The position numbers and the translations under genes were made by a program. 64,000 bases of DNA from Phycisphaeraceae bacterium (GTDB lineage: Bacteria; Planctomycetota; Phycisphaerae; Phycisphaerales; Phycisphaeraceae): positions 1 to 64,000 of the forward strand of contig JAJDCU010000071.1 in the NCBI GenBank assembly GCA_029260655.1. Direction: 5' to 3'. Under the pieces are notes generated by a model. The model did not search any database and was not told the DNA's origin. It was given only the letters and a program-made list of their open reading frames with translations. Below, piece by piece: positions 9,746-64,000 of this stretch. The first letter of the stretch is position 1. Every line of letters starts with the position of its first letter.

Positions 9746-10429
9746 TTAGCGACGACGACGCAGGATGGCGAGGCCACCGAGACCCATCAGAGCCAGCGAA
9801 GCGGGCTCGGGGATGACACCTATGGTACCGTTGATGATGAGGATGTTGAACGTGTCCTTGGCGGCCTGGCCGGCGACGGTGATCGCCAGGGTCAGGGTGC
9901 CTTGGGCATCGCCCGAGAAGGTGAACTGACCCAGTGCGTTGGCGCCGATATCAGTGTTGATCGTACCATTTCCGTTCCAGGAAACGTCGATACCGGCCGC
10001 GTCAAACTGCTGGGGGCCAGGGCCACCGGCATCGCCGCCGGCGCCGGCGATCGCGATCACACCAATGCCGCCGCCACCGGCTGGGGCGTTACCGTCCAAA
10101 TAGGAGTCGTACTGGGACGAGGGCAGGCCGGGGAAACCCAGGGGGCTGGGGGCGGACAGGGTCGACCCGTTGCAGCCGAAGCCGCATTCCAGTTCCTGAT
10201 AGATCGTGCCGCTGGAGAGGTGGACAAACATCGCAGCCGCCGTCCAGTCGAGGGTGGTGTTGACGGTCAGCACGTTGGCAGCGAAGCCATCAAGGTTACC
10301 GACGCCGCCTGTGATCGCGACTCCGTTAGGAACCGCGACGCTGGCCCACGACATGGTGGTCGCCGCCGTCGCGGTGCTTGCGGCGAAGCCGGCTGCGATG
10401 ACAGGCAAAGCAAACTTCATTATCCTCAT
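9746..10429 (-). CDS. PEP-CTERM sorting domain protein
   Basis: 227 residues from the ATG at 10429 (AGGAG seven bases upstream; a TTG at 10435 is the alternative). Signal peptide about 1-23 (ends TATA). The mature part is small, Gly/Ala/Asn-rich and almost free of Lys and Arg, with one CGFGC motif that could form a disulphide. It ends with a clear PEP-CTERM tail: IPEPASLAL, a hydrophobic segment, then RRRR. Unlike other secreted proteins of this window it has no dockerin repeat. Such proteins are exported, processed by an exosortase and often associated with the exopolysaccharide matrix. No enzymatic domain recognised. It has its own promoter candidate and a strong terminator, so it is a single-gene unit. 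Confidence 0.8.
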   Translation of the reverse strand: MRIMKFALPVIAAGFAASTATAATTMSWASVAVPNGVAITGGVGNLDGFAANVLTVNTTLDWTAAAMFVHLSSGTIYQELECGFGCNGSTLSAPSPLGFPGLPSSQYDSYLDGNAPAGGGGIGVIAIAGAGGDAGGPGPQQFDAAGIDVSWNGNGTINTDIGANALGQFTFSGDAQGTLTLAITVAGQAAKDTFNILIINGTIGVIPEPASLALMGLGGLAILRRRR

Positions 10430-23442: not shown

Positions 23443-24525
23443 TCAGGCGGCGTTTGTCTCGTCCCGGTCCGCGCCGCGGTACACCCGGCGGACCTTGTAG
23501 GGCTTGCGGTCCTGGCTCTCGTGATAGATCCGGGCCATCAACTCCGCGAGCACCCCGATCATCAGGAACATCACGCACATCAGGAATGTCATCATCGCAA
23601 ACAGGACAAGGACGTTGTTGTTGAGCATCACCGGCTGGCCGTGCTCGGTCAGGTACCCGTACTTCTGGATGATCGCCCAGGTCAGGCTCAGGAACGAGAC
23701 CGCCATCGCCATCATCGCGACCTTCCCGAAGAAGTAGATCGGCTTGGCCAGGTAATCGCCGAGGAACTTGACGGTCAGCAGGTCCAAAAGCACCTTGAAT
23801 GTGCGCTTCAGCCCGTATTTGCTTTCGCCGGCGACGCGCGCGCGGTGGTTGACGACCTGCTCGGTGATCCGCGCGCCGCGCCACTTGCAGATCGCCGGGA
23901 GGAACCGGTGCATCTCCCCGTAAAGCCGGACGTCTTCGATGACTTCCTGGCGGTACGCCTTCATCGAGCAGCCGAAGTCGTGGATCTCCGTCGTCCAGGT
24001 CAGCCGTTTGATCAACCGGTTGGCCATGATCGACGGCAGACGCCGGCTCAGGAGCTTGTCCTGACGGTTCTTTCGCCACCCGCTGACGATGTCCCACCCC
24101 GGCGGATCGTCGAGCTTGGCGACCAGGGACGGGATGTCGTTCGGGTCGTTCTGAAGGTCCCCGTCCATCGGCACCACCACCGAGCCGCGGGCATGTCTGA
24201 ACCCCGCCGCCAGCGACGCCGTCTGCCCGAAGTTCTTCGTGAACTCAAGCAGTGTCACACGCCGGTCATCGCCCATCGCCTCGCGCATCCGCGGCACGGT
24301 CTGGTCACGGCTGCCGTCGTCGATGAAGATCACTTCATACGTAAGCGATTGGGCATCGATCATTTCCGCGATCTGCTGGTACAACGGCCCGACGTTGTCC
24401 TCCTCGTTGTGCAGGGGCACCACGATCGAGACGTCCACCGGGCTTTCGCTGGTCTTGTGTTGTTCCATCATCGGTGATTCCCCACGATCGTCCGGTAAGG
24501 CGGGCCGGCCCCGCCGATTGTTCAT
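23443..24525 (-). CDS. GT2 polyprenyl-phosphate glycosyltransferase (ArnC/DPMS-like)
   Basis: 360 residues. N-terminal GT2 domain: DVSIVVPLHNEEDNVGPLY, VIFIDDGSRDQT, RHARGSVVVPMDGDLQNDP (donor/metal-binding Asp residues), then two membrane helices at about 245-270 and 285-325 (KVAMMAMAVSFLSL; LVLFAMMTFLMCVMFLMIGV), typical of enzymes that make undecaprenyl-phosphate sugars. Its product could feed the GT39-like transferase at 16976. The C-terminus reads DETNAA. AAGGA precedes the ATG. The upstream GT2 gene ends nine bases before it, so both are in one transcript, followed by glpD. Confidence 0.9.
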   Translation of the reverse strand: MNNRRGRPALPDDRGESPMMEQHKTSESPVDVSIVVPLHNEEDNVGPLYQQIAEMIDAQSLTYEVIFIDDGSRDQTVPRMREAMGDDRRVTLLEFTKNFGQTASLAAGFRHARGSVVVPMDGDLQNDPNDIPSLVAKLDDPPGWDIVSGWRKNRQDKLLSRRLPSIMANRLIKRLTWTTEIHDFGCSMKAYRQEVIEDVRLYGEMHRFLPAICKWRGARITEQVVNHRARVAGESKYGLKRTFKVLLDLLTVKFLGDYLAKPIYFFGKVAMMAMAVSFLSLTWAIIQKYGYLTEHGQPVMLNNNVLVLFAMMTFLMCVMFLMIGVLAELMARIYHESQDRKPYKVRRVYRGADRDETNAA

Positions 24526-52819: not shown

Positions 52820-53401
52820 TTATGGATCGTCGCTTGTGGTTGTCTGTGCTCCCGGCAATGTCAGCGGCCTCATCCCCATCGTCCGGAGCAGCTCCAGCGA
52901 TTGGTCTGGGTTTGCCTCGGCGAGTTGTGAAAATATCGCGTCCCCGCGCGACAGGATCGTGTCCTCGTCTTCGTAGTAGGGGTACAGGTGGTTCGGGTCG
53001 TTGTCTTTGTAGGTGACGGTCCGCCTGGGCCAGCTCCGGCCGTTCTCGAAGTCGTGGAGGATGACGATGCGGTTGGGGGCCGAGGCCTGCGCGACCCCGA
53101 CGAGGCCGCCGTCGATGTCTGAGTGCAGGACGAATCCCGGCGGGGGCGAGGTCCTGGGCAGGGTGCCGAAGAAGGCGTGATCGATCTTAGGTTCGTCGTT
53201 GACGGTGATGTGGTAGTGCAGGGAGAGGGTGCCCTGGGAGTTGGGCTCGACGGTCATACGGATAGCCCGGCCTTCGCCGAGGTCCATGGTGGTGAGGGCG
53301 ACGGGCTGGGGCTTGGCGCCTTTTCTCAGGCGCAGCACCAGCGGCACGAGGGCCACCGTCACGAGCACAAAAATCATCACCGCGATGAGCCGGGGGTTCA
53401 T
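52820..53401 (-). CDS. Small membrane-anchored protein of unknown function
   Basis: 193 residues from the ATG at 53401; the open frame upstream (to 53593) overlaps the terminator and glycosyltransferase end and is not protein-like. One N-terminal membrane helix (IAVMIFVLVTVALVPLVL) then a basic residue stretch, so the rest is probably periplasmic. The soluble part is a mixed alpha/beta sequence (LGEGRAIRMTVEPNSQG; LHYHITVNDEP; NRIVILHDFENGRSWPRR; YYEDEDTILSRGDAIFSQL). I do not recognise a family. No clear ribosome binding site. Lies between the glycosyltransferase terminator and the radical SAM gene. Confidence 0.65.
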   Translation of the reverse strand: MNPRLIAVMIFVLVTVALVPLVLRLRKGAKPQPVALTTMDLGEGRAIRMTVEPNSQGTLSLHYHITVNDEPKIDHAFFGTLPRTSPPPGFVLHSDIDGGLVGVAQASAPNRIVILHDFENGRSWPRRTVTYKDNDPNHLYPYYEDEDTILSRGDAIFSQLAEANPDQSLELLRTMGMRPLTLPGAQTTTSDDP

Positions 53402-53487: not shown

Positions 53488-54429
53488 CTAGGCGGCGTGC
53501 CTGACCGGGGCGGCGCTGGGCTTGGCCCCTGTGTCCGATGGGTGTGCGACGCCACGGAGCAGGGTTTGGCGGTAGTGGCTGTTGCCCAGCCACCAGGGCC
53601 TACGAAGCAGTTGCTGCCAGAGGAAGCTGCGGGAGCGGTTGGCGTGTGATTCCGTCTCGGCCAGGGCGTAGATCCTGCGTCGCTCGTCGATATTCTCCCA
53701 CAGGGCATGGCGGCGCTCATAGGGGAGCCGATCGGCGTAACGTGCCGCGGCGTCGATGAACTCCTGGCCGTTGCGCAGGATATTCGTGGCGGTGTGGCTG
53801 TGGGGGTGCTCCCTGTGTGCGGAAAGCACGGCGGGGAGGATGGCCGGGACGAGGCCCTGGGCGATCAGTCGGCAATTCACTTCGTAGTGCCAGGCCGAGT
53901 CCATCTGCGGGTCGAACATCCCGTAGGCGTCGAAGACGCCGCGCCGGTAGAAGGTCGACGCGGTGGGAAGCAAGCCCGAGTCGTGCATCAGGAACGCATC
54001 GAGGTTTTTCGGCGATGAAGCGGTCAGTTGCCCCAGCCGTTCGTCCATCTCACCGATCCGCAGGCTGTGGCCGACGATCCACACGGGGGCGTCGGGCCGG
54101 GTCATGCGCTTGGCGACCTGTTCGAGCGTGCCGGGCAGGAGCAGGTCGTCGGCGTTGACGATCGCGATAATCTCGCCGGTGGCGCGGTTGATCGCCTGAT
54201 TGACCGCGTCGGCGGGGCCGCCGTCGGGTTGGCTCTGCCAGTAGGTCAGGTCGTCTTCGTACTGGCGGATCAGGTCCACGCTCTGGTCGGTCGAGCCCCC
54301 GTCGACCACGATGTATTCAAGGTCCGGGTACCCCTGGTCCAAGACGCTGCAGATCGCGCGCTCCAGGAAATCGGCCTGGTTGAGGCTGGGGGTGATGACC
54401 GTGATGCGCGGCGTTGCTTTCAGGGGCAT
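53488..54429 (-). CDS. GT2 family glycosyltransferase (C-terminal RHAA)
   Basis: 313 residues from the ATG at 54429 (AGGA six bases upstream). GT2 motifs: TVITPSLNQADFLERAICSV, YIVVDGGSTDQSVDLI, AVNQAINRATGEIIAIVNADDLLLPG (D-x-D position NADD). A paralogue of the protein at 55501: both have the SLNQAD/SFNQAD start and a C-terminal RRPWWL. The last residues read VRHAA. Own terminator downstream; divergent from the FkbM gene at 54623 with an inverted repeat between them. Acceptor unknown. Confidence 0.9.
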   Translation of the reverse strand: MPLKATPRITVITPSLNQADFLERAICSVLDQGYPDLEYIVVDGGSTDQSVDLIRQYEDDLTYWQSQPDGGPADAVNQAINRATGEIIAIVNADDLLLPGTLEQVAKRMTRPDAPVWIVGHSLRIGEMDERLGQLTASSPKNLDAFLMHDSGLLPTASTFYRRGVFDAYGMFDPQMDSAWHYEVNCRLIAQGLVPAILPAVLSAHREHPHSHTATNILRNGQEFIDAAARYADRLPYERRHALWENIDERRRIYALAETESHANRSRSFLWQQLLRRPWWLGNSHYRQTLLRGVAHPSDTGAKPSAAPVRHAA

Positions 54430-54509
54430 GGCAGGTCCTTGCTGGGAGCCGGTTCTATCCCGCAGATCGTCCCGGCCGGGGGGCGACTTAACCATACAGA
54501 CAGAAAAAC

Positions 54510-54572
54510 CGTCACAAACGGAATATTTTCACATCCACCGGGGGTGGCTGAAGCGTGGTGCGGTTTGTGACG
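54510..54572. promoter_or_regulatory. Inverted repeat between divergent genes, possible operator
   Basis: CGTCACAAAC (54510-54519) and GTTTGTGACG (54563-54572) are exact reverse complements 43 bases apart, between the divergent GT2 (54429) and FkbM (54623) starts. TATAAG at about 54579-54584 could be a -10 for the FkbM gene. Confidence 0.4.
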
Positions 54573-54622
54573 ATGATGACGTTTATAAGGGCGCGCCCGG
54601 CGTGCGCCAGGACAGGTGAGCG

Positions 54623-55462
54623 ATGCCGATAAGAACGACATTCAAACGCGCCGCATCCCGGTTGCTGTTCCGAGCCGGGCAATTCGCCCATCGCGCCCGC
54701 TGGTCGGCGGACCTGGCGACTTTGGCGCAGTTTTATCGGCCCGGGTCAGGGCAAGGCCAGGTCCGCGCCAGGTTTGCCGGGCGTGTTCACCGCCTGCACG
54801 TCCGCCGGGGTACTCTCGACGCCGCCATCTTCGAGCAGGTCCTCTGTGAAGGCTCCGAATACCGCCTGCCCGTGGATATCCAGCCGAGCGTGATCTTCGA
54901 CATCGGGGCAAATATCGGCGCCGCCGCGGTGTACTTCGCGGCCCGCTACCCCCAGGCGAAGATCTATTGCTTCGAGCCGCTGCCGGAGAACATCGAACTG
55001 TTGCGTAAGAACGTCGAGGCGTTTGGCGATCGGGTGACCGTCGTGCCGTTTGGGCTCGGCGAGACCGAGGGTACGTTCGTCTATCGGCCGTCAAATGACC
55101 CGGCAAATTTCGGCGGCGGGACGTTCCACAACGTGGGTTGTGCGGATGGTGGGACGATGCGATTGCCTGTGACGACGCTCGAGAAGTTTTGCCGGGCGAA
55201 CCGGATCCATCAGATCGACGCGATGAAGATCGACACCGAGGGGGCCGAGTGGTCGGTGTTGTCGGGCATGCCCTCGGCGAAGCTGGCTCGGGTGGGTGTG
55301 GTGCTGGGTGAACTGCACAGCGTCAATGATGGGTTGATTTTTGAAAAACTCTCCACGACGCACGACCTGGCCTACGACAAACCGCTGGGCCGAAGCTGCT
55401 ACCCGTTCTGGGCGGTGAAGAAGGCGCCGGGGCAGCCGGCGGCCGCGCGTCTCGCGGCATAA
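54623..55462 (+). CDS. FkbM family methyltransferase (C-terminal RLAA)
   Basis: 279 residues; AGGTGAG before the ATG. SAM-binding motif VIFDIGANIGAAAVYFAARYP (90-), YCFEPLPENIELLRKNV (FkbM motif II/post-I), MKIDTEGAEWSVLSGM (FkbM signature, DxEGxE). O-methyltransferase, probably acting on a glycan hydroxyl group. The only plus-strand gene of this locus. A second FkbM protein is encoded at 57257. The C-terminus reads RLAA. Starts 193 bases from the divergent GT2. Confidence 0.92.
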   Translation: MPIRTTFKRAASRLLFRAGQFAHRARWSADLATLAQFYRPGSGQGQVRARFAGRVHRLHVRRGTLDAAIFEQVLCEGSEYRLPVDIQPSVIFDIGANIGAAAVYFAARYPQAKIYCFEPLPENIELLRKNVEAFGDRVTVVPFGLGETEGTFVYRPSNDPANFGGGTFHNVGCADGGTMRLPVTTLEKFCRANRIHQIDAMKIDTEGAEWSVLSGMPSAKLARVGVVLGELHSVNDGLIFEKLSTTHDLAYDKPLGRSCYPFWAVKKAPGQPAAARLAA

Positions 55463-55500
55463 ATCGTATTGACAAGAATAGTGTTGCGAGGCGCCCGTCG

Positions 55501-56379
55501 TCAGGCGGCGGCGCGGTGGGGGTGTAATAGCGCCTCACGGACCTGGTGTGACAGCAGCCACCACGGCCTGCGAGCGATCGCGCCCCAGGGACGGCCGGCA
55601 ACCGCGTGGATCGCGCAGTTTCGGTGCATGTACCCCAATCGACGCTGGACCTTCAGCCGCTGTACAAGCGGCAGCGACCGCGCGAAACCGCCTTCGACTC
55701 GGATGTGCTCGCGGGTGAACCCCTGGGGGGCGGCGCAGCTCTTGCTCGTCTCATGCAGGCGGTAGGTCGAGAGCTCTGCGTCGATCAGCGTGGGGCGTCG
55801 GCCGGACCGGATCAGACGCAGCCAGAAGTCGAAGTCCATGCAGTAGTGCAGCGACTCATCAAGCAGGCCTAATTCGTTATGCAGCGAGCGCCGCCAGAAC
55901 ACGCCGGGCTGGGGGAGGCTAAAGGGTTGCTCGTCGCTTCGCAGCAAGACACCGGCGAGGGTGAACTCGCCGCCGGGATGCACGGCATCCGTGGGCTTGC
56001 CCGCAGGGTCGATCACACGGCAACTCCCAGCGATCCAATCATCCTTAGGGTGCTGGGCGAAGTGTTGGCCGATCGTGTGTAGCGCCCCCGGGAGCAGCGT
56101 GTCGTCCGAGCACAGCCAACCGACGATCTCCCCGTCCGCCCTGTTGATGCCTTTGTTGATCGCTTCGGTCTGGCCGCCGTCTTTTTCGATGACGGCGAAG
56201 TCGAGCCTGTCGCGGTAGCGTTCGATGATCTCAGTTGAGCCATCGGTGGAGCCGCCGTCGATCACGCCGTACTGGAGGTTGGGATAGCTCTGGGCCAGGA
56301 CGCTCTGGATGGTTTCCTCCAGGTAGTCGGCTTGGTTGAAGCTGGGGGTGATGAGGGTGATGCGTGGGAGCGCGCTCAT
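55501..56379 (-). CDS. GT2 family glycosyltransferase (C-terminal RAAA)
   Basis: 292 residues. LITPSFNQADYLEETIQSVL, YGVIDGGSTDGSTEII, INKGINRADGEIVGWLCSDDTLLPG; later DESLHYCMDFDFWLRLIRSG, the acceptor-side motif of the GT2 WfgS-like group. Paralogue of the GT2 at 53488 (same motifs and RRPWWLL near the end). The ATG overlaps the stop of the gene at 56376 by four bases. Last gene of a minus-strand operon that extends at least to 59009; the C-terminus is HRAAA. Convergent with the FkbM gene, 38 bases apart; no clear terminator was seen in this short gap. Confidence 0.9.
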   Translation of the reverse strand: MSALPRITLITPSFNQADYLEETIQSVLAQSYPNLQYGVIDGGSTDGSTEIIERYRDRLDFAVIEKDGGQTEAINKGINRADGEIVGWLCSDDTLLPGALHTIGQHFAQHPKDDWIAGSCRVIDPAGKPTDAVHPGGEFTLAGVLLRSDEQPFSLPQPGVFWRRSLHNELGLLDESLHYCMDFDFWLRLIRSGRRPTLIDAELSTYRLHETSKSCAAPQGFTREHIRVEGGFARSLPLVQRLKVQRRLGYMHRNCAIHAVAGRPWGAIARRPWWLLSHQVREALLHPHRAAA

Positions 56380-57260
56380 GCCGCCATCCTCCGTGTCGGG
56401 TTGGTTTGTGTGATCTCAGTGAGCGTGGGCAGTTCGTGGTCGGCCGGGTGCTCGGCAGGAGCGCCGCGCCACTGGTAATAGAGCGTGAGCCAGTTGCTCG
56501 CCAGGGTATAGCCGAAGTAGATCCCGCTAAGCGCCCAGCCGCGGAAGCCGATGCGCCAGCCGTCGAAGTCCTTGAGCGTCTTCTTGAGTTCAATCAGTGG
56601 GGCGATGAACCCCAGGCGGAAGCTGAAGCGTTTGCCTTGGGCGACCATCGCGGCGGCCTCGGTGTGCGCGTAGCGTACGAAGTGCTTGTGCAGCAGATCG
56701 GTGTACGAGTCGGACCAGAAGTGCCGCATGTGGTTTTCGCCATCATGGGGGATACGTACGTCGCGCTCACCGGGCTTGAGCTGGCTGATGCGGTTGCACA
56801 GGGGGAGTAAATCGCATCGCTGGCGGTGGATCAGTCGCTGCTTGTGGGTCAGCGTGCCCCAAACCGTTCCGGTGAGCCGCTTGTTCTTGAAGTAGAACCA
56901 CATCGGCAGGCTGATCGCGCCGGCGTCGGGGTGCTGGGCGAGTGCTTGGCAGATGTCGTCACTTAAAGCCGAAGGGATTTCTTCATCCGGGTCGACCAGC
57001 AGCACCCAGTCGTTACGCGCCAGCTTTGCGGCGGCGACGCGCGTCGGCTCGGCGATCGGGCAGACGGGCACGCGCAACACACGGTCTGCCAGATTGTGGG
57101 CGATCTGTAACGAACCGTCGCTGGATTCCATATCAACCGCGATGACCTCGCTGCACCACAACAACGCGCGCAGGCACCGCCCGATGTGCTTCCGTTCGTT
57201 TCGGAAGATCACGATCGCGGTCACCGGTGGGTGAGTCGGTGTCTTGGGCCGATCGGTCAT
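56376..57260 (-). CDS. GT2 glycosyltransferase, WaaE/KdtX-like (C-terminal RMAA)
   Basis: 294 residues. VTAIVIFRNERKHIGRCLRALL, VIAVDMESSDGSLQIA, VLLVDPDEEIPSAL (DPDE motif), HPDAGAISLPMWFYFKNKRLTGTVWG: the pattern of the WaaE (KdtX) beta-glucosyltransferase group that acts on lipopolysaccharide or glycan cores. The middle contains a Cys/His pair (RCDLLPLC) of unknown meaning. Four-base overlaps with both neighbouring genes. The C-terminus reads RRMAA; the downstream ribosome binding site CGGAGG lies within these last codons. Confidence 0.9.
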   Translation of the reverse strand: MTDRPKTPTHPPVTAIVIFRNERKHIGRCLRALLWCSEVIAVDMESSDGSLQIAHNLADRVLRVPVCPIAEPTRVAAAKLARNDWVLLVDPDEEIPSALSDDICQALAQHPDAGAISLPMWFYFKNKRLTGTVWGTLTHKQRLIHRQRCDLLPLCNRISQLKPGERDVRIPHDGENHMRHFWSDSYTDLLHKHFVRYAHTEAAAMVAQGKRFSFRLGFIAPLIELKKTLKDFDGWRIGFRGWALSGIYFGYTLASNWLTLYYQWRGAPAEHPADHELPTLTEITQTNPTRRMAA

Positions 57261-58033
57261 GCGGCTTTCCTGTGCGCCTGTAAGGCGGCGGCTGGATCTG
57301 GGACGTACAGCGCGTCGCCCGACCCAATGTGTCCACCCGGCAGGTGTGTGCAGACGTTGTAGAGGTTGAACAGCTTGTAGCCGCGGCTACGCATGAAGAC
57401 GTCGATCTCCCCGAAAGTCGCGGAGCCCTCATAGAACGGGACGAAATTGACTTCGGCGTAGATGCACGACACCCCGCGACGCAGCAGCCGGTCCGCGCCA
57501 CGCAGCGCCTCCAGCTCGTAGCCCTGCAGGTCGAGTTTGAGGATGTCTACGCGGTCCAGGCCCGAGCTGTCGAACCAGTCGTCGAGCGACGTTGCCTTGA
57601 GCTCGCGGACCTCTTTGATCCGTGTGACGGCATCGAAGTAGCGCTCGCTGTTCTCGTTGCGGGGCAGGACCGAACTGGTCATCGGCGAGTCGTTGATGAA
57701 CATCTTTAGAGTCTGCGTTTGGCTGGAGAGCGCCAGTTGATGGCATGTACCAGCGACATCAGCGAGGTTGCTCTTTAGTCGTGGGAACAGGTCGGCATTG
57801 GGCTCGAAGGCGTGGGCCTGGAGGCTCGGGAACCGTTGCAAAAACCGTTTAGCCATCTGGCCGTCGTGCGCTCCACCGTCGACGTAGATCACCTCATCGC
57901 GATCTGTTGGCAGGTTTTCCGCGATCGCGTCCATCCACGGATGCGGTGAGTAGCTGGTGCTGACCGGATCGCGCCAGCGGTTCCAGGCCGTTAGCGCTTT
58001 CCAATACTGCTGCTTGATCATAGTCAGGTTCAT
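57257..58033 (-). CDS. FkbM family methyltransferase (C-terminal RKAA)
   Basis: 258 residues from the ATG at 58033 (AAGGA upstream); the longer open frame would overlap the upstream gene. SAM-binding region EVIYVDGGAHDGQMAKRFLQ, AHAFEPNADLFPRLKSNL, LDDWFDSSGLDRVDILKLDLQGYELEALRG (DLQGYE is the FkbM signature), then CIYAEVNFVPFYEGSATFGE. Probably an O-methyltransferase for a sugar. Paralogous to the product of 54623 only at family level. The last residues are HRKAA, with AGGAA overlapping as the binding site for the next gene. Confidence 0.9.
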   Translation of the reverse strand: MNLTMIKQQYWKALTAWNRWRDPVSTSYSPHPWMDAIAENLPTDRDEVIYVDGGAHDGQMAKRFLQRFPSLQAHAFEPNADLFPRLKSNLADVAGTCHQLALSSQTQTLKMFINDSPMTSSVLPRNENSERYFDAVTRIKEVRELKATSLDDWFDSSGLDRVDILKLDLQGYELEALRGADRLLRRGVSCIYAEVNFVPFYEGSATFGEIDVFMRSRGYKLFNLYNVCTHLPGGHIGSGDALYVPDPAAALQAHRKAA

Positions 58034-58049
58034 CGTTGTCCTTAGCTGG

Positions 58050-59009
58050 TCAGGCGGCAAGCGCCCAGTAAACAACCTTCCAGGTGCGGGGTGAGAGCGG
58101 GGCGTGGCGGAGCGCATCGGCCGCGTGCTTACGGGCCAGGGGCTTGTTCCCGGCGTGGATCGCGTAGCAGGCCCAGTTGCGGTAGTGCTCGGCCGCGGAC
58201 TGCCTGGGAGCCAGATCGGTCCGTATCACGGTGTCGTTGTACTGATCCAGGATGCCGCGTCGATCGTAGGCCTCTCGCAGCACCTCTTTGAGACGCCTGC
58301 ACATCAGCTCGTAGTTTCGGAAGCAGACGCTCTGGACATGTCGGCGGTAGGTGTAGAGGTGGGCCGGCAGGTTGGCGACGTTCCCGTGCTCGGTCAGGCG
58401 AAGGAACAGGTCCAGGTCTTCGACCCAGTCGGTGCCGAGGCGCCAACCGCCGATGGTGCGCAGCGCGTCGCCGCGCATCATCAAGGTGGCGTGGACTAAG
58501 ACAGAGGCGTCGCCTGCGAGCAGGCCCCGGTCGATCGCGGTGTGGTCGGTAGGTGGCTCTTGCAGACCTGCGGGCGAGCCGAGCGGGTCGGTCCGCTGGA
58601 CCCAGGTGCCCAGCGCGGCGCAGCCCGGGTGTGCATCCAGATACGAAACCTGCCGTTCGAAGCGATCCTCTGCGCACCAGTCGTCGGCGTCCATCCTTGC
58701 GATGTATTCACCCCGTGCGGCAGCCAGCGCATCGTTGAGCGCGCCGACGATCCCGGTGTTCGGCCGGGTGATCACGCGGACACAGGCGAACCGTGAGGCA
58801 TAGGACCGAAGGATCGTCAGCGAAGCATCGGTCGATCCGTCGTCCACGCAGATCAATTCCCAGTCGTCAAACGTCTGCGCGAGGATGCAGTCGATTGCCT
58901 CGGCGAGGTAAGCCTCGGCGTTGTAGACCGGCATCAGGACCGATACGCGCGGCGCGGCGTCTGGGTTGTCGCCCTGGGGCGCTGCCGTGCTGTGAATCCG
59001 TGTGCTCAC
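58050..59009 (-). CDS. GT2 family glycosyltransferase (C-terminal ALAA)
   Basis: 319 residues from a GTG at 59009, which overlaps the upstream TGA by four bases and has GGGAGG five bases ahead; an upstream start at 59066 would run into the preceding gene. VSVLMPVYNAEAYLAEAIDCIL, LICVDDGSTDASLTIL, YIARMDADDWCAEDRFERQV (DADD), then a C-terminal helical region (YRNWACYAIHAGNKPLARKHAADALRH) that looks like a short TPR-type helical repeat. Acceptor unknown. The C-terminus is YWALAA, the only member of the set without Arg at the fourth position from the end. Confidence 0.9.
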   Translation of the reverse strand: MSTRIHSTAAPQGDNPDAAPRVSVLMPVYNAEAYLAEAIDCILAQTFDDWELICVDDGSTDASLTILRSYASRFACVRVITRPNTGIVGALNDALAAARGEYIARMDADDWCAEDRFERQVSYLDAHPGCAALGTWVQRTDPLGSPAGLQEPPTDHTAIDRGLLAGDASVLVHATLMMRGDALRTIGGWRLGTDWVEDLDLFLRLTEHGNVANLPAHLYTYRRHVQSVCFRNYELMCRRLKEVLREAYDRRGILDQYNDTVIRTDLAPRQSAAEHYRNWACYAIHAGNKPLARKHAADALRHAPLSPRTWKVVYWALAA

Positions 59010-59902
59010 GCGGCCTCCCGATTCAGGCCGGCGGCGCGGCCAATCCGGGCCAGGGCGCGCTTCCACTTGGGTCGATCAAGTGACGCCAGCCAGCGTTCGG
59101 CTTCACGGAACTTCGCCGGCGGCGTCGTGTCTCGCGACGGGTCCAAACCCTGGAACGGCAGCGTAGACAGCGTACGGCCGCGCCAACTGATCACGTCCAG
59201 CTGCGGTGTGTAATGCGGCGTGACCTCCCCGGTCATGTCGTGCCAGGGGTGCATCAGCCTGACGTTTGGGTTCCACCTGACCATCAGCCCCAGGTTGCAC
59301 AGCCGGGCGTACACGTCCTTGTCGTTGGCGTGGAAACCGGTGGCGAAGATCGGGCTCTGTTCGTAGCCGTTGATCCGGGTCAGCCACTTCTTCCGCACAG
59401 CCAGGCATGCCCCGTGGTTGGTCGGGTTGGTCAACTCACAGACTTTACGCAGGTGCTCCAGGGTCACTTCGCCGGCGTGCTGCTCCTTCGGCTCGTTGTG
59501 ACGGTGGTAGTAGGTCACCAGTTCATCGCTTGCCTGGTGGTCTCGCCAGACCGTTTGGAGGAAGTCAGGCTCGGCGATCACATCGGCGTCGGGGATCACG
59601 ACCAACTCACCGCGAGCCTCATCGATCCCGCGGTTAAAGCAATAGGATGCGTGATACGTTCCGCTGCGACCAAGCGCGATCGCGCGGAAGTCCCGGGACC
59701 CGGCCTGGGCGTCCATCCGACGTTTCAGATCCGGGTGGATCTTGTCGTAGTACTCGACCCAGATCAGCTCGTAGTCCCCGGACGGGAAGTCCTGCCTGGC
59801 CATGAAGTCGATCGAGTCGTACCTTTCGCGGAACGAGCCGTCGACCATGACGACACTGATCTTCGGGTTGGAGGCGGGGTTGTATGTGATGTTGGTGCTC
59901 AT
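59006..59902 (-). CDS. GT2-like glycosyltransferase (C-terminal REAA)
   Basis: 298 residues. PKISVVMVDGSFRERYDSIDFM replaces the usual GT2 start; later LIWVEYYDK, GELVVIPDADVIAEPDFL (DADV at the metal site), NHGACLAVRKKWLTRINGYEQSP and GFHANDKDVYARLCNLG, a GT-A pattern of the chondroitin-synthase-like branch. The four C-terminal residues are REAA, and their codons contain the GGGAGG site for the next gene. Lies 12 bases after the stop of the GT4 gene. Confidence 0.82.
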   Translation of the reverse strand: MSTNITYNPASNPKISVVMVDGSFRERYDSIDFMARQDFPSGDYELIWVEYYDKIHPDLKRRMDAQAGSRDFRAIALGRSGTYHASYCFNRGIDEARGELVVIPDADVIAEPDFLQTVWRDHQASDELVTYYHRHNEPKEQHAGEVTLEHLRKVCELTNPTNHGACLAVRKKWLTRINGYEQSPIFATGFHANDKDVYARLCNLGLMVRWNPNVRLMHPWHDMTGEVTPHYTPQLDVISWRGRTLSTLPFQGLDPSRDTTPPAKFREAERWLASLDRPKWKRALARIGRAAGLNREAA

Positions 59903-59914
59903 GTCTGCTCTGGC

Positions 59915-61288
59915 CTATGCGGCCTGTCGTGTTCCTTGTGAGCGCACGTTACGGACGACCTGGCCGTACCACGCAAGGTATCGGTCGGTCTGGGTATCGA
60001 GGTCGAACTTCTTTGCGGCGGTTTCGACGGCCTGCTCGGCGAACGCTTCACGCAGGCCCTTGTTTTTCAGAAGCATCGCCAGGTACGCCCCGAATAGCTG
60101 GGCATCGCCGGCACCGGTGAGCAGTCCGGTCTGGCCGTGGTCGACCTGCTCGGGGATGCCGCCGACATCCGACGCAACGACCGGCGTCCCACAGGCCATC
60201 GCCTCGAGGATCGTGGTCGGGAAGGTGTCCTCCTTGGCGGCGTGTGCGTAGACATCGGCTGCGCGGTAGTAATCCGCGACGGTGCTGGGGTCGGCTTGTG
60301 GGGCGATGAACCGCACCTTCGCTCGCCCGATCTGCTGCGTCTCACCTGCCTCGCCCAAGGCTACACATATCACCGGCCGATCTGTCACCGACTCGCCGAC
60401 CACGCGGACGGCCTCACGCAGCGTTTCGAAGTCCTTGAAGTCGGATTGGCGGATGCCGTTGGCGGCGAAGAGGACGATGTGTGCGTTCTCGGGCAGAGCC
60501 AGGTGATGGCGGGCCAGCGCCTGATCGCCCGGGTTGAAGACCGACCGGTCCACACCGTTTGGGATCACACGTGAATCAAGAACGGCCGGGGCGAGGATCG
60601 ACCGCTTGACCTTGTCCATCAGCCACTTAGAGGGTGCGACGAGGTAGACCCGGCTGTGTGCGTAGATATCACGCTTGCGCCGCCAGTTCCGTCCGGTCGC
60701 ATCGCGGCGCACGGCGGGGTAGGTCCCAAGCGAGGGGCAACTGCCGCAGCCGGACTGCCAGCGGTCGCAGCCAAGGGAGTGGGCACAGTGCCCGGCGAGC
60801 ATCCACGCGTCGTGCAAGGTGACGAACACCGGGGCTTGCCGAGAGAGCCGTGGCAGTTGACGCAGGTTGAAGTAGCCGCCGTGGAGATTGTGCAGGTGGA
60901 TCAGATCGGGTGGGTGCTTGGGCAGGGATGTAAGCGAGGCCGCGCCGGGGTAACCGTAGTGCTCTCGGCCAAGTTGCGCGTCAAGCCATGCGTTGGGCCG
61001 TGCGATCGCGTCGGTGACGGTACGCAGTCGGCGCGTGCTGCCCAGCCGGTGTTCGTGGGTGTGCAGTTGGTAAGAGACCCCCGCCCAGAAGCGGGACCAT
61101 CGGTTTCGAGACGCATCGTTAGGGATCAGGGCGACCGCGTCGTCGTCCCCTGTCTTGCGTCCCACAGCCAGGGTCGCTTGATGGCCCCGCGATTGGAACC
61201 GCCGGTGGAGATTCATCGCGATGCGCTCTGCGCCGCCGCCATGGTCCGCTGTGCTGACCTGCAGGATGCTTAGGCCCGGTCGTGTCAT
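59915..61288 (-). CDS. GT4 family glycosyltransferase (C-terminal RQAA)
   Basis: 457 residues. ILQVSTADHGGGAERIAMNLHRRF at the start and LIHLHNLHGGYFN with HDAWMLAGHCAHSLGCDRWQ plus CGSCPSLGTYP, a Cys-rich insert typical of the WcaC-like branch. The C-domain has DTFPTTILEAMACGTPVVAS (E-x7-E) and VGGIPEQVDHGQTGLL. Cytosolic GT-B enzyme; donor and acceptor unknown. Overlaps the deacetylase gene upstream by four bases. The C-terminus reads GTRQAA. Confidence 0.92.
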   Translation of the reverse strand: MTRPGLSILQVSTADHGGGAERIAMNLHRRFQSRGHQATLAVGRKTGDDDAVALIPNDASRNRWSRFWAGVSYQLHTHEHRLGSTRRLRTVTDAIARPNAWLDAQLGREHYGYPGAASLTSLPKHPPDLIHLHNLHGGYFNLRQLPRLSRQAPVFVTLHDAWMLAGHCAHSLGCDRWQSGCGSCPSLGTYPAVRRDATGRNWRRKRDIYAHSRVYLVAPSKWLMDKVKRSILAPAVLDSRVIPNGVDRSVFNPGDQALARHHLALPENAHIVLFAANGIRQSDFKDFETLREAVRVVGESVTDRPVICVALGEAGETQQIGRAKVRFIAPQADPSTVADYYRAADVYAHAAKEDTFPTTILEAMACGTPVVASDVGGIPEQVDHGQTGLLTGAGDAQLFGAYLAMLLKNKGLREAFAEQAVETAAKKFDLDTQTDRYLAWYGQVVRNVRSQGTRQAA

Positions 61289-62310
61289 GCCGCGGCCCTC
61301 CCGACTTCCTGTAGCAGCCGATCCCCAGCCCAGTCTCGCACCAGTACACGCGGGAGCTGGAACGGGTCTGTGCCCCGGCGACCCTTGCCCGGGAAGTTTG
61401 AGCAGGCACAGTCGAACCCCGCATCCCGCACAGCGGCGACCGTGTCAAGGGTGTATGAGCTGCGTGTGCCGTAGGGGTAGGAGAAACTCTGGACGGGCTG
61501 GTCGATGATCCTCTCGAGGTCGTCCTTGCACTGGCGGATCTGTCGGCGCTGTTCGCTATCCGTTAGTTTCGCGAGGATCGGGTGGTCGATCGTGTGGGCG
61601 CCGACCTCGATTAATCCACCGTCAACGAGCTGACGCAACTGCTCGGCGGTCATTGCACGATGGGTCGGGCGTGCGGACGGGCTGGCGCTGGCCCATTGGC
61701 ACAATTCATTGATCAACGGCTGCTGGCGATCGTAAGGCAGCGGCCGAAGCTTATCGCAAAGCGACACGTAGGCGGCCTGACGCCGGGTCGTGGTGGGGGA
61801 GAGGGCGCTCCATCCGGCATTGTGATAGCCGTCCGTCTCGCCGGCAAAGCTCCATCGGTATTGCTCTTGGCCGATGGTGATGTTGAGCTCTTCCGGCAGC
61901 ATGCGATCCGACAGGAAGATGTCTTCGAGCTTGTCCCAGTAGAACGCGCGGTCACCGCCGACAGATCCGCTAGCGACAAATACGGTCGCGGGGATGCCGT
62001 GCCTTTCGAGGATCGGCTTGGCGATCGTCAGGTTGTCTTCGTATCCATCGTCGAAGGTCACAACCACGGCACGGTGGGGGACATCGCCCCGGCGGACGCA
62101 CGCCCAGAGATACCGCAGGCTGATGGGCTGGTACGAGCGAGCGATCAGTTGCATCTGCTCGTCGAACCGTTTGGGACTGACCGACAGCAACTGCGGGTCG
62201 CACGTCAGGTCGGTTACACGGTGATATAGCAGCACCCTCGCGCCCGGGCTTGTTTGGCGTAAGAGCCCAAGGGCTTTGCTGCGCAGGTTGTCCAGTGTGA
62301 GGGTGAGCAT
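61285..62310 (-). CDS. Polysaccharide deacetylase, NodB homology (C-terminal RAAA)
   Basis: 341 residues from the ATG at 62310, which follows the upstream TAA after one base; a GTG at 62334 would overlap. NodB motifs: VVVTFDDGYEDN with two Asp (about 87-88), HTIDHPILAK (metal-binding H-x3-H), FSYPYGTRSSY, then CACSN near the end. No signal peptide, so it acts in the cytoplasm or after an unusual export. Removes N- or O-acetyl groups from a glycan or lipid-linked sugar. The C-terminus is GRAAA, and GGGAGG in these codons serves the downstream GT4. Confidence 0.9.
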   Translation of the reverse strand: MLTLTLDNLRSKALGLLRQTSPGARVLLYHRVTDLTCDPQLLSVSPKRFDEQMQLIARSYQPISLRYLWACVRRGDVPHRAVVVTFDDGYEDNLTIAKPILERHGIPATVFVASGSVGGDRAFYWDKLEDIFLSDRMLPEELNITIGQEQYRWSFAGETDGYHNAGWSALSPTTTRRQAAYVSLCDKLRPLPYDRQQPLINELCQWASASPSARPTHRAMTAEQLRQLVDGGLIEVGAHTIDHPILAKLTDSEQRRQIRQCKDDLERIIDQPVQSFSYPYGTRSSYTLDTVAAVRDAGFDCACSNFPGKGRRGTDPFQLPRVLVRDWAGDRLLQEVGRAAA

Positions 62311-62311
62311 C

Positions 62312-63076
62312 TTATTGCAGGGGCTTGCGAGCACGGACAGTAACGATGACCGGGTAGTCCGGGTCGTGGTAATCGATCTCTTGTTCGGTGAGCTCTTCGA
62401 GTGAAAGTCCGTGGAGGAACGCGGTGGCGGTCAGGACGTTGCCACAGGAAGCCACCTCCACACAATCCCCGGGCAGGTGCTCCTCGAACAGCCGTCGGGT
62501 TACTTGCGGGGTCAGTCGCCAGTAGTCGCCCCAGAGGTCGGCGTCGTACCGGCTGACCTGTCCCAGGCCGAGGTTGGTTGCCAGCACGACCCCGCCGGGC
62601 CTCAGCGCGGCGCAGGTGTGAGCGACCGCGGCGTGGATGTCGAAGATGTGCTGGAGCACCTGTGTGAGGATGATGCAGTCGTAGGTATCCGTCGAGACGC
62701 CCTGGCCGGTCGCGAGGTCGCCTACCACCGTTGCCTGCGGGTTGCCGGGCTCGGCGTGGAGGACATCTGATTGCGTGACACGGTCGCCGCCGAACGCTTT
62801 CGTAACGTGGTTGTCACCGATCTCCAGCACGCGGCCGCGGATGTCATCGGCGTGGGCAGCGACGAATCGGTTGACGTAGTGTCGGCCGATCCGTGTCCCG
62901 CCTCTCCCGTAGCCAAACGACTCGGCGATCGGTGTGGTCCGGCGGAAGGACCCAAACCGCACGGAGCCCATCGGGGGTGTGCCCCCAGCCGACTCGGCGG
63001 TCCGCTTGATCATCTCGCGGCTTGCTCGCAGGAGCTGCGCGGCGCGTGACTCGATCTGTTGCTTCATCTGGCTCAT
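62312..63076 (-). CDS. SAM-dependent methyltransferase (C-terminal KPLQ)
   Basis: 254 residues. A long N-terminal helical part, then the class I SAM fold: RGRVLEIGDNHVTKAFGG (motif I), VVGDLATGQGVSTDTYDCIILTQVLQHIFD (motif II), LRPGGVVLATNLGLGQVS (motif III), and VEVASCGNVLTATAFLHGL at the end. Methylates a small molecule or sugar; cannot be narrowed. The ATG overlaps the stop of the pyruvyl transferase gene by four bases. It is the only protein in this locus that does not end in Ala-Ala. Confidence 0.85.
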   Translation of the reverse strand: MSQMKQQIESRAAQLLRASREMIKRTAESAGGTPPMGSVRFGSFRRTTPIAESFGYGRGGTRIGRHYVNRFVAAHADDIRGRVLEIGDNHVTKAFGGDRVTQSDVLHAEPGNPQATVVGDLATGQGVSTDTYDCIILTQVLQHIFDIHAAVAHTCAALRPGGVVLATNLGLGQVSRYDADLWGDYWRLTPQVTRRLFEEHLPGDCVEVASCGNVLTATAFLHGLSLEELTEQEIDYHDPDYPVIVTVRARKPLQ

Positions 63077-64000
63077 GCGGCGGCTCGTGCGCTAGGGGTC
63101 AGCGGCGTGGGTGGATTCAGGCGAGTCCGATCCGGGACTGTGACGCCGAACGATTTCTCATAGGTTGTTTCTAAGTCCGCGACCAACTCGGCTGTCCTGG
63201 CCTTGAGATAGCGTGAGCGCTGACGGCGTTGGCCAATTAGGTCGTTCAACTGCTTACTGGCATGCTCGGGGTCAAGTTCCTGCCAGCGCTGAGACCATTG
63301 GCCGTATCCGACCCGCCTGACCAGTGCCGCAACCTTGCCGTCTTCGCCGGTGTAGTCGATCGAAAGCATCGGCACCCCCAGGGCCATGCAGAACAGGTGC
63401 CCGTGGTAGCGCATCGCCACCGCGGCATCGGCCCCTGCGAGCCGCTCAAGTAGATCGTTGAGGCTCAGATACCCACGTTCAACCCGAGCCCGCGTGTGAT
63501 CGGTAAACGCCTCCGCGATCTGGCGGTTGAATAGCCGATCGTCCCCGCCCAGCCACAGCGCGTGCATCGCAAGCAGCTCAACGGTCGTGTTGTGCTGCTT
63601 GGCGGCTGATTCGAAGACGCGGGCCAGTTGCCGGGTAGAGTCTTGATTACGTACTTCCAGTTCGTCTCGGGTTATATCAGCGACGTATTCACAGGTGTTG
63701 GCCCGGACCAGTCCGATCAGGCGGGGCGTGGTGTGTTCACGCGCGATCGAGGCCTCCTGATTTCGCCCCCAGCGGTAGAGATACCGTAGAGCCGGGTCGC
63801 ATCCGATGCCTAGCTTGTGTGGCGCACCCAGTTGCACCGCGTAGTCGTAGCTTTCACGGTCCCGAACGAAGCCTGCGGTGGTCATTTTCAGGATCGCGGC
63901 CGCTTGAGATTTGACGCGTTGGTTATGGAAGGGTCCAACGCCGCACCCGAAGATCACACGGGCTTTCCAGCAATCGTTTGCCCTGCAAAAGAGGCGGTAG
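63073..64000 (-). CDS. Polysaccharide pyruvyl transferase family protein, N-terminus cut by window edge (C-terminal RAAA)
   Basis: The frame stays open past a possible GTG at 63957 up to the window end (residues before it read ...CWKAR), so the N-terminus is missing; about 309 residues are visible. The family pattern is clear: VIFGCGVGPFHNQRVKSQA, AGFVRDRESYDYAVQLGA, GCDPALRYL, VAMRYHGHLFCMALGVPMLSIDY (the H-x-x-I/F-A-like conserved block of CsaB/PssM proteins) and GEDGKVAALVRRVG. Transfers pyruvate from phosphoenolpyruvate to a sugar as a ketal. The C-terminus is SARAAA. First visible gene of the operon, which continues to the right. Confidence 0.88.
   Translation of the reverse strand, partial: YRLFCRANDCWKARVIFGCGVGPFHNQRVKSQAAAILKMTTAGFVRDRESYDYAVQLGAPHKLGIGCDPALRYLYRWGRNQEASIAREHTTPRLIGLVRANTCEYVADITRDELEVRNQDSTRQLARVFESAAKQHNTTVELLAMHALWLGGDDRLFNRQIAEAFTDHTRARVERGYLSLNDLLERLAGADAAVAMRYHGHLFCMALGVPMLSIDYTGEDGKVAALVRRVGYGQWSQRWQELDPEHASKQLNDLIGQRRQRSRYLKARTAELVADLETTYEKSFGVTVPDRTRLNPPTPLTPSARAAA

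Follow-up and report, generated by a model that had tools for sequence, protein, structure and literature searches.

The window analysed here, the whole stretch of 64,000 nucleotides, carries near its right end a run of eleven consecutive genes (53488-63957) coding for proteins of a glycan locus. As shown in Table 1, ten of the eleven products end in Ala-Ala and nine of these in Arg-x-Ala-Ala; from 53488 to 63073 the C-termini read RHAA, RLAA, RAAA, RMAA, RKAA, ALAA, REAA, RQAA, RAAA, KPLQ and RAAA. All eleven ends, with their codons and stop codons, were found in the sequence exactly as an earlier note on this DNA had listed them. Its statement that the carriers belong to at least five unrelated families was supported by Pfam matches to GT2 (PF00535) and GT4 (PF00534/PF13439) glycosyltransferases, FkbM methyltransferases (PF05050), a polysaccharide deacetylase (PF01522) and a pyruvyl transferase (PF04230). 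The FkbM gene at 54623..55462 is the only one of the run on the plus strand. For the gene listed at 58050-59066 the likelier start is a GTG at 59009, which overlaps the stop codon of the 59006-59902 gene; members of the family of this ALAA protein end in WALAA, WAMAA or WALCA. The frame of the last gene is still open at the window edge, and its start possibly lies outside.

Table 1. Genes of the run, with C-terminal ends and positions of the tail codons (stop included)
Product and C-terminal end	Coordinates	Strand	Remarks
GT2 glycosyltransferase, RHAA	53488..54495	-	PF00535; tail 53488-53502, AGG CAC GCC GCC TAG
FkbM methyltransferase, RLAA	54623..55462	+	PF05050; tail 55448-55462, CGT CTC GCG GCA TAA
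GT2 glycosyltransferase, RAAA	55501..56379	-	PF00535; tail 55501-55515
GT2-like glycosyltransferase, RMAA	56376..57260	-	tail 56376-56390; AF2 end of low confidence
FkbM methyltransferase, RKAA	57257..58117	-	tail 57257-57271; start likely 58033; AF2 model made
GT2 glycosyltransferase, ALAA	58050..59009	-	tail 58050-58064; likely GTG start 59009
GT2/GT21-like glycosyltransferase, REAA	59006..59902	-	tail 59006-59020; relatives end RKAA or KKAA
GT4 glycosyltransferase, RQAA	59915..61288	-	PF00534, PF13439; tail 59915-59929
NodB-type polysaccharide deacetylase, RAAA	61285..62310	-	PF01522; tail 61285-61299
Methyltransferase without tail, KPLQ	62312..63076	-	similar protein of genome G005 also tail-free (RPVDS)
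Polysaccharide pyruvyl transferase, RAAA	63073..63999	-	PF04230; tail 63073-63087

The tailed run continues beyond the window (contig C71 from base 64001, here L001) with two methyltransferases ending in RVAA and AAAA and a Wzt ATPase carrying a Wzt_C domain and ending in HNAA, with Arg at position -5. It stops at the membrane subunit, the Wzm permease (C-terminus FADVV), and a PMT-like membrane protein is also encoded there. A PF01061 permease adjoining an ABC ATPase (PF00005 and PF14524) among GT2/GT4 genes meets the criteria for a Wzm/Wzt pair, and judged by these domains the locus is an O-antigen-type glycan locus with a predicted Wzm/Wzt ABC exporter. The left border is abrupt, the neighbours at 52820 and 51839 ending in DDP and GCA. 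Our own gene calls also agree with the earlier note that no protein of the locus at 10837-39047 has an RxAA end (the GT2 protein at 23443 ends in NAA). Adjoining the Wzm/Wzt locus, L001:8397-9497 encodes a 366-aa protein without a Pfam or NCBIfam match, whose counterparts in congeners have similar ends. Two further proteins, encoded at L001:10017-11060 and at 9746-10420 of the window, end in a PEP-CTERM-like stretch with LRRRR, and the first of them matches PF07589.

To place these ends against the rest of the genome, C-termini were counted with a home-made dicodon gene caller run on the window and 1.42 Mb more, giving a sample of 1.48 of the 3.52 Mb. C-termini are set by frame and stop alone, and wrong starts are harmless to the counts. 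The locus sample comprised 15 proteins, eleven from the window and four from L001. Ten of the 15 end in [RK]xAA vs. nine of 1158 other proteins (Fisher p = 2e-16), and 13 of 15 vs. 34 of 1158 (about 3%) end in Ala-Ala (p = 1e-17); for RxAA alone the figures are 10/15 and 5/1158. An RxAA end equally common across the proteome would have refuted the earlier note; in this sample it is uncommon outside the locus. Chance as the origin of the tails was ruled out by the enrichment of locus over rest, and a genome-wide C-terminal bias by the rarity of [RK]xAA elsewhere in the sample.

Some carriers do occur elsewhere. A phosphofructokinase (RAAA, L029:3-965) and an integrase-core transposase (RRAA, L027:8803-9870) are among the rare [RK]xAA proteins, and at L057:3652-5429 a GT4-type glycosyltransferase ending in KHAA is followed by a hexapeptide transferase ending in SFAA. 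A second tailed cluster lies on contig C26 (L039:4323-13120), where TRAA, RRAA, KAAA, KKAA and RLAA ends surround an O-antigen-ligase-like protein (Wzy_C); two of the carriers there are predicted to be membrane proteins. The glycosyltransferase preceding the ligase ends in KKAA in the genus and in RQAS, RMAG, RRAG or RKAG in several other Phycisphaeraceae genomes.

For the comparison with other bacteria we used 20-kb stretches at Wzt/FkbM matches in relatives and 80 named Wzm loci from a species collection; the named tailed loci are labelled mostly Phycisphaeraceae, the rest Phycisphaera or only Planctomycetota. Nearly all compared loci come from metagenome-assembled genomes, though of many independent projects, and their gene calls were home-made. 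With flanking genes counted in, 146 of 368 genes in Phycisphaeraceae Wzm-locus stretches end in Ala-Ala and 76 of 368 in [RK]xAA. The corresponding counts were 4/230 and 0/230 in other planctomycete loci and 2/739 and 0/739 in loci of other phyla (pooled, 6 and 0 of 969 genes). The tail is characteristic of the family Phycisphaeraceae. A property of all Wzm/Wzt loci is ruled out by the absence of [RK]xAA among these 969 genes.

Within the family the tail is tied to the type of locus. Where the same genomes encode FkbM enzymes in loci of another type, these are mostly without it, by which a property of all Phycisphaeraceae glycan loci is excluded as well, and Wzt proteins adjoining another type of Wzm (FAEYA end) also lack it. 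Not all Wzm loci of the family are tailed; genome G013 has no tails in its locus and G010 only some. In the Phycisphaeraceae loci, Ala-Ala ends were found in 142 of 323 proteins with fewer than three predicted membrane stretches vs. 4 of 45 with three or more, so that the tail occurs almost only on predicted soluble proteins.

Loss of the tail in close relatives with the same locus would likewise have spoken against the earlier note; congeners with this locus still carry it. BLAST partners sharing 40-60% identity with an [RK]xAA-tailed protein end in Ala-Ala in 252 of 265 cases inside the family and in 0 of 178 outside it, although these pairs are not independent. When an FkbM tree was made with the last 12 residues removed, six changes were needed for the tailed group, at least four of them forced by supported branches; the tree is a quick one and weakly resolved, and it indicates that the tail was gained repeatedly. 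That the tails might be functionless relics of shared gene ancestry, or of the spread of one 3′ end, agrees with orthologues in closely related loci having them in common. Yet tailed pairs are only about 10-20% identical at positions -5 to -30 and nevertheless keep Ala-Ala in the proportion given above, and the FkbM changes, the many unrelated families that carry the tail and the lack of Ala-Ala in homologues outside Phycisphaeraceae leave this account hardly credible. The claim that common descent is insufficient was borne out on these same grounds. An inherited end of one gene family was rejected, with many families tailed and outside homologues tail-free.

At position -4 of Ala-Ala-ending proteins in the family's loci, Arg is 5.4-fold and Lys 2.1-fold more frequent than in the protein bodies, and at -3 Lys is enriched 5.3-fold, Gln 2.5-fold and Arg 2.0-fold, Leu just 1.2-fold. 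We considered whether translational coupling could impose Arg and Ala as a by-product, through an AGG Shine-Dalgarno sequence and a GCATGA start overlap. Among genes overlapping the next gene, the final Ala codon is indeed GCA in 25 of 30 and AGG accounts for 9 of 14 Arg codons. However, RxAA is equally frequent without a close downstream gene (16 of 26 Ala-Ala-ending genes with an opposite-strand neighbour, 11 of 29 with a gap of more than 100 bases), Ala codons at -2 are chosen as in the gene bodies, and Wzm-type loci of other bacteria are tail-free, which makes this explanation very unlikely. Start-stop overlap or a Shine-Dalgarno sequence as the sole cause was ruled out; overlap picks the codons only, and the protein is therefore the conserved thing. 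Selection at the protein level, as the earlier note had argued, thus holds because RxAA does not depend on a close downstream gene and the -2 Ala codons match body usage; all three stop codons are used as well.

The variants point to the residues that are kept. Untailed genes lying between tailed ones have near-miss ends in 6 of 18 cases (REVA, RKVA, KNVA twice, ALCA and SKAG), and HTRVA at L173 is another; in near-miss ends ([RK]xVA, KAG, ALCA) positions -1 and -2 are still small residues. Alignments show a hypervariable linker, then the tail. In two AF2 models built on shallow alignments the tail lies beyond the confidently modelled core, with pLDDT of 60, 60 and 49 in the last blocks of the glycosyltransferase and of 73 in the last block of the FkbM protein, where a short end helix follows the core. 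As far as these predicted structures go, the criterion of an accessible, flexible C-terminus is met.

A similar end was found in the tmRNA of the host (L058:982-1358), whose tag reads ANDNIAGRIGFAPARMAA and ends in RMAA, the same four residues as the glycosyltransferase at 56376..57260. Arg stands at position -4 in 26 of 28 parsed tags of Phycisphaeraceae and 4 of 5 of a sister family (f6), in 0 of 12 from the order's four remaining families (ANTQYALAA type) and in 2 of 27 elsewhere in the phylum. The tags of Phycisphaeraceae and f6 also stand out by their unusual length of 17-23 residues, and they contain a conserved GRIGF core (tmRNA loci L060-L098) in which IGF looks like the ClpX loop docking ClpP; the ANTQYALAA-type tags of the sister families have 9-10 residues. 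In the ClpX of the host the residues that recognise a terminal Ala-Ala are retained, corresponding to E. coli Y153, V154, T199, V202, R228 and H230 (GYVG, SITRDV, RKH), and ClpP is present in the genome. What ClpXP depends on most in the ssrA tag is Ala-Ala with its free carboxylate, and other proteins are targeted through related Ala-Ala degrons (PMC7652416), native examples being RseA(1-108) with a GVAA end and poly-Ala tails (PMC8138137).

The agreement of tails and tags is incomplete. Position -3 of the tags is nearly always Leu or Met, whereas the tails prefer Lys, Gln and Arg there. Family f6 has an RLAA tag but zero [RK]xAA tails in its three Wzt/FkbM loci, and genomes G011 and G021 have ALAA-ending tags yet [RK]xAA tails; a strict tail-tag agreement across genomes was not found. 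Nor did we find a special ClpX in the tailed genomes, the loops being identical with and without tails, and an SspB adaptor is absent.

We infer that the tails are genome-encoded C-degrons resembling the end of the host tmRNA (ssrA) tag, and put the probability of this reading at about 0.5; there are no degradation data, and degradation itself is inferred. ClpXP, or a different AAA+ protease able to recognise a terminal Ala-Ala, would then keep the tailed proteins, nearly all soluble enzymes and the Wzt ATPase of a Wzm/Wzt O-antigen-type pathway, short-lived, or alternatively would remove them jointly when surface-glycan synthesis is shut down. In exporter-type synthesis the chain is assembled on an undecaprenyl carrier in the cytoplasm. 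Because of this, clearing all cytoplasmic steps together may avoid dead-end intermediates, leaving no half-built chains stuck on the carrier. Recognition of the tail by a protease, the identity of that protease and the purpose this would serve are all inferred. A degron is the most likely meaning, and docking or sorting the second, because the tag ends in RMAA, Ala-Ala is read by ClpX, the ClpX residues are kept, ClpP is present and the carriers are almost all predicted to be soluble. Also in its favour are the rarity of Arg at -4 in tags elsewhere in the phylum, the small residues kept in near-miss ends, and the place of the tail behind a hypervariable linker and outside the modelled core. 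The -3 mismatch, the f6 tag without tails, G011 and G021, the unchanged ClpX and the roughly 3% of other proteins that end in Ala-Ala speak against it and keep our confidence near one half; a weaker or adaptor-dependent degron is not excluded.

The tails could instead be a docking or sorting signal, akin to the peroxisomal PTS1, by which an unidentified receptor for C-terminal peptides gathers the soluble enzymes and Wzt in a single assembly site at the exporter. Co-assembly predicts that nearly every soluble step is tailed and the exporter ATPase too, as observed; the tailed proteins of genome G028 also include a NeuB-like synthase and a HAD-like phosphatase, names that rest on the N-termini and not on a search. 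The basic preference at -3 and -4 exceeds what the tmRNA tag shows, and the tail tracks the locus, not the enzyme family, as the tail-free FkbM enzymes of other locus types illustrate. Against this, no receptor gene was identified, no PDZ or adaptor domain occurs in the neighbours examined, and it would leave unexplained why the tails match the tmRNA tag in its unusual Arg-x-Ala-Ala end. We regard docking or sorting as doubtful, though still open. The earlier note had named docking, sorting and a degron as candidate meanings; the degron has gained the RMAA tag end, but the choice among them is still inference, no peptide-binding partner having been found among the neighbours examined.

The C-terminus may have some other function specific to this locus, for instance as a target for processing or modification or by influencing translation termination or expression level, but we consider this rather improbable. 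Bacterial expression is generally influenced by C-terminal residues, but the general bias is for Lys or Arg at -1, not for Ala-Ala with basic -3 and -4 (PMC7246954), and a processing enzyme was not found. A broader proposal, which we offer only tentatively, is that [RK]-x-Ala-Ala is a pathway-defining code of this bacterial family, regained by soluble enzymes joining an ABC-exported locus and read either by a dedicated receptor that brings them together at the exporter, in the manner of a bacterial PTS1, or for their collective proteolysis. If the tails are degrons, a complete surface-glycan pathway would be under the control of genome-encoded imitations of the cell's own degradation tag, and the last four residues of a protein would show whether it belongs to the regulon; if they are a docking code, they would represent a new way of building a bacterial enzyme assembly. 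On either reading the tail is a sequence label for proteins working with the glycan pathway, and it bears on how genes joining the locus are fitted into host regulation.

Neither a described tag of this kind nor a pathway-wide bacterial C-terminal signal was found in our literature searches. The nearest known parallels include the ssrA tag and native ClpXP C-degrons (the GVAA end of RseA 1-108, the poly-Ala of RqcH), which have in common with the tails a short exposed Ala-Ala-carboxylate end, and the host's own tag also has Arg at -4. The tails differ from them in that the genome encodes them on almost every soluble protein of a single pathway, in a -3 residue that is mostly basic or polar and not Leu or Met (a hydrophobic Leu, Met or Val there is typical of such degrons, not strictly required), and in that no degradation has been shown for them; the upstream GRIGF part of the host tag was not seen in the tails inspected. 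The MuA-type ClpX C-degron RRKKAI (PMC8138137) similarly places a small residue after basic ones close to the C-terminus, but it ends in Ala-Ile and belongs to just one phage protein instead of a whole pathway. The C-terminal degron of LpxC (LAFKAPSAVLA, read by FtsH) in the lipopolysaccharide pathway is a precedent for a C-degron on an envelope-glycan enzyme, with the difference that it concerns one enzyme, other residues and another protease. Pathway-wide short C-terminal signals are known for eukaryotic organelles. The peroxisomal PTS1 tripeptide has another motif, and for the tails no receptor or compartment is known, but the likeness to it lies in the same principle, a tiny C-terminal motif carried by many enzymes that are unrelated yet act together.
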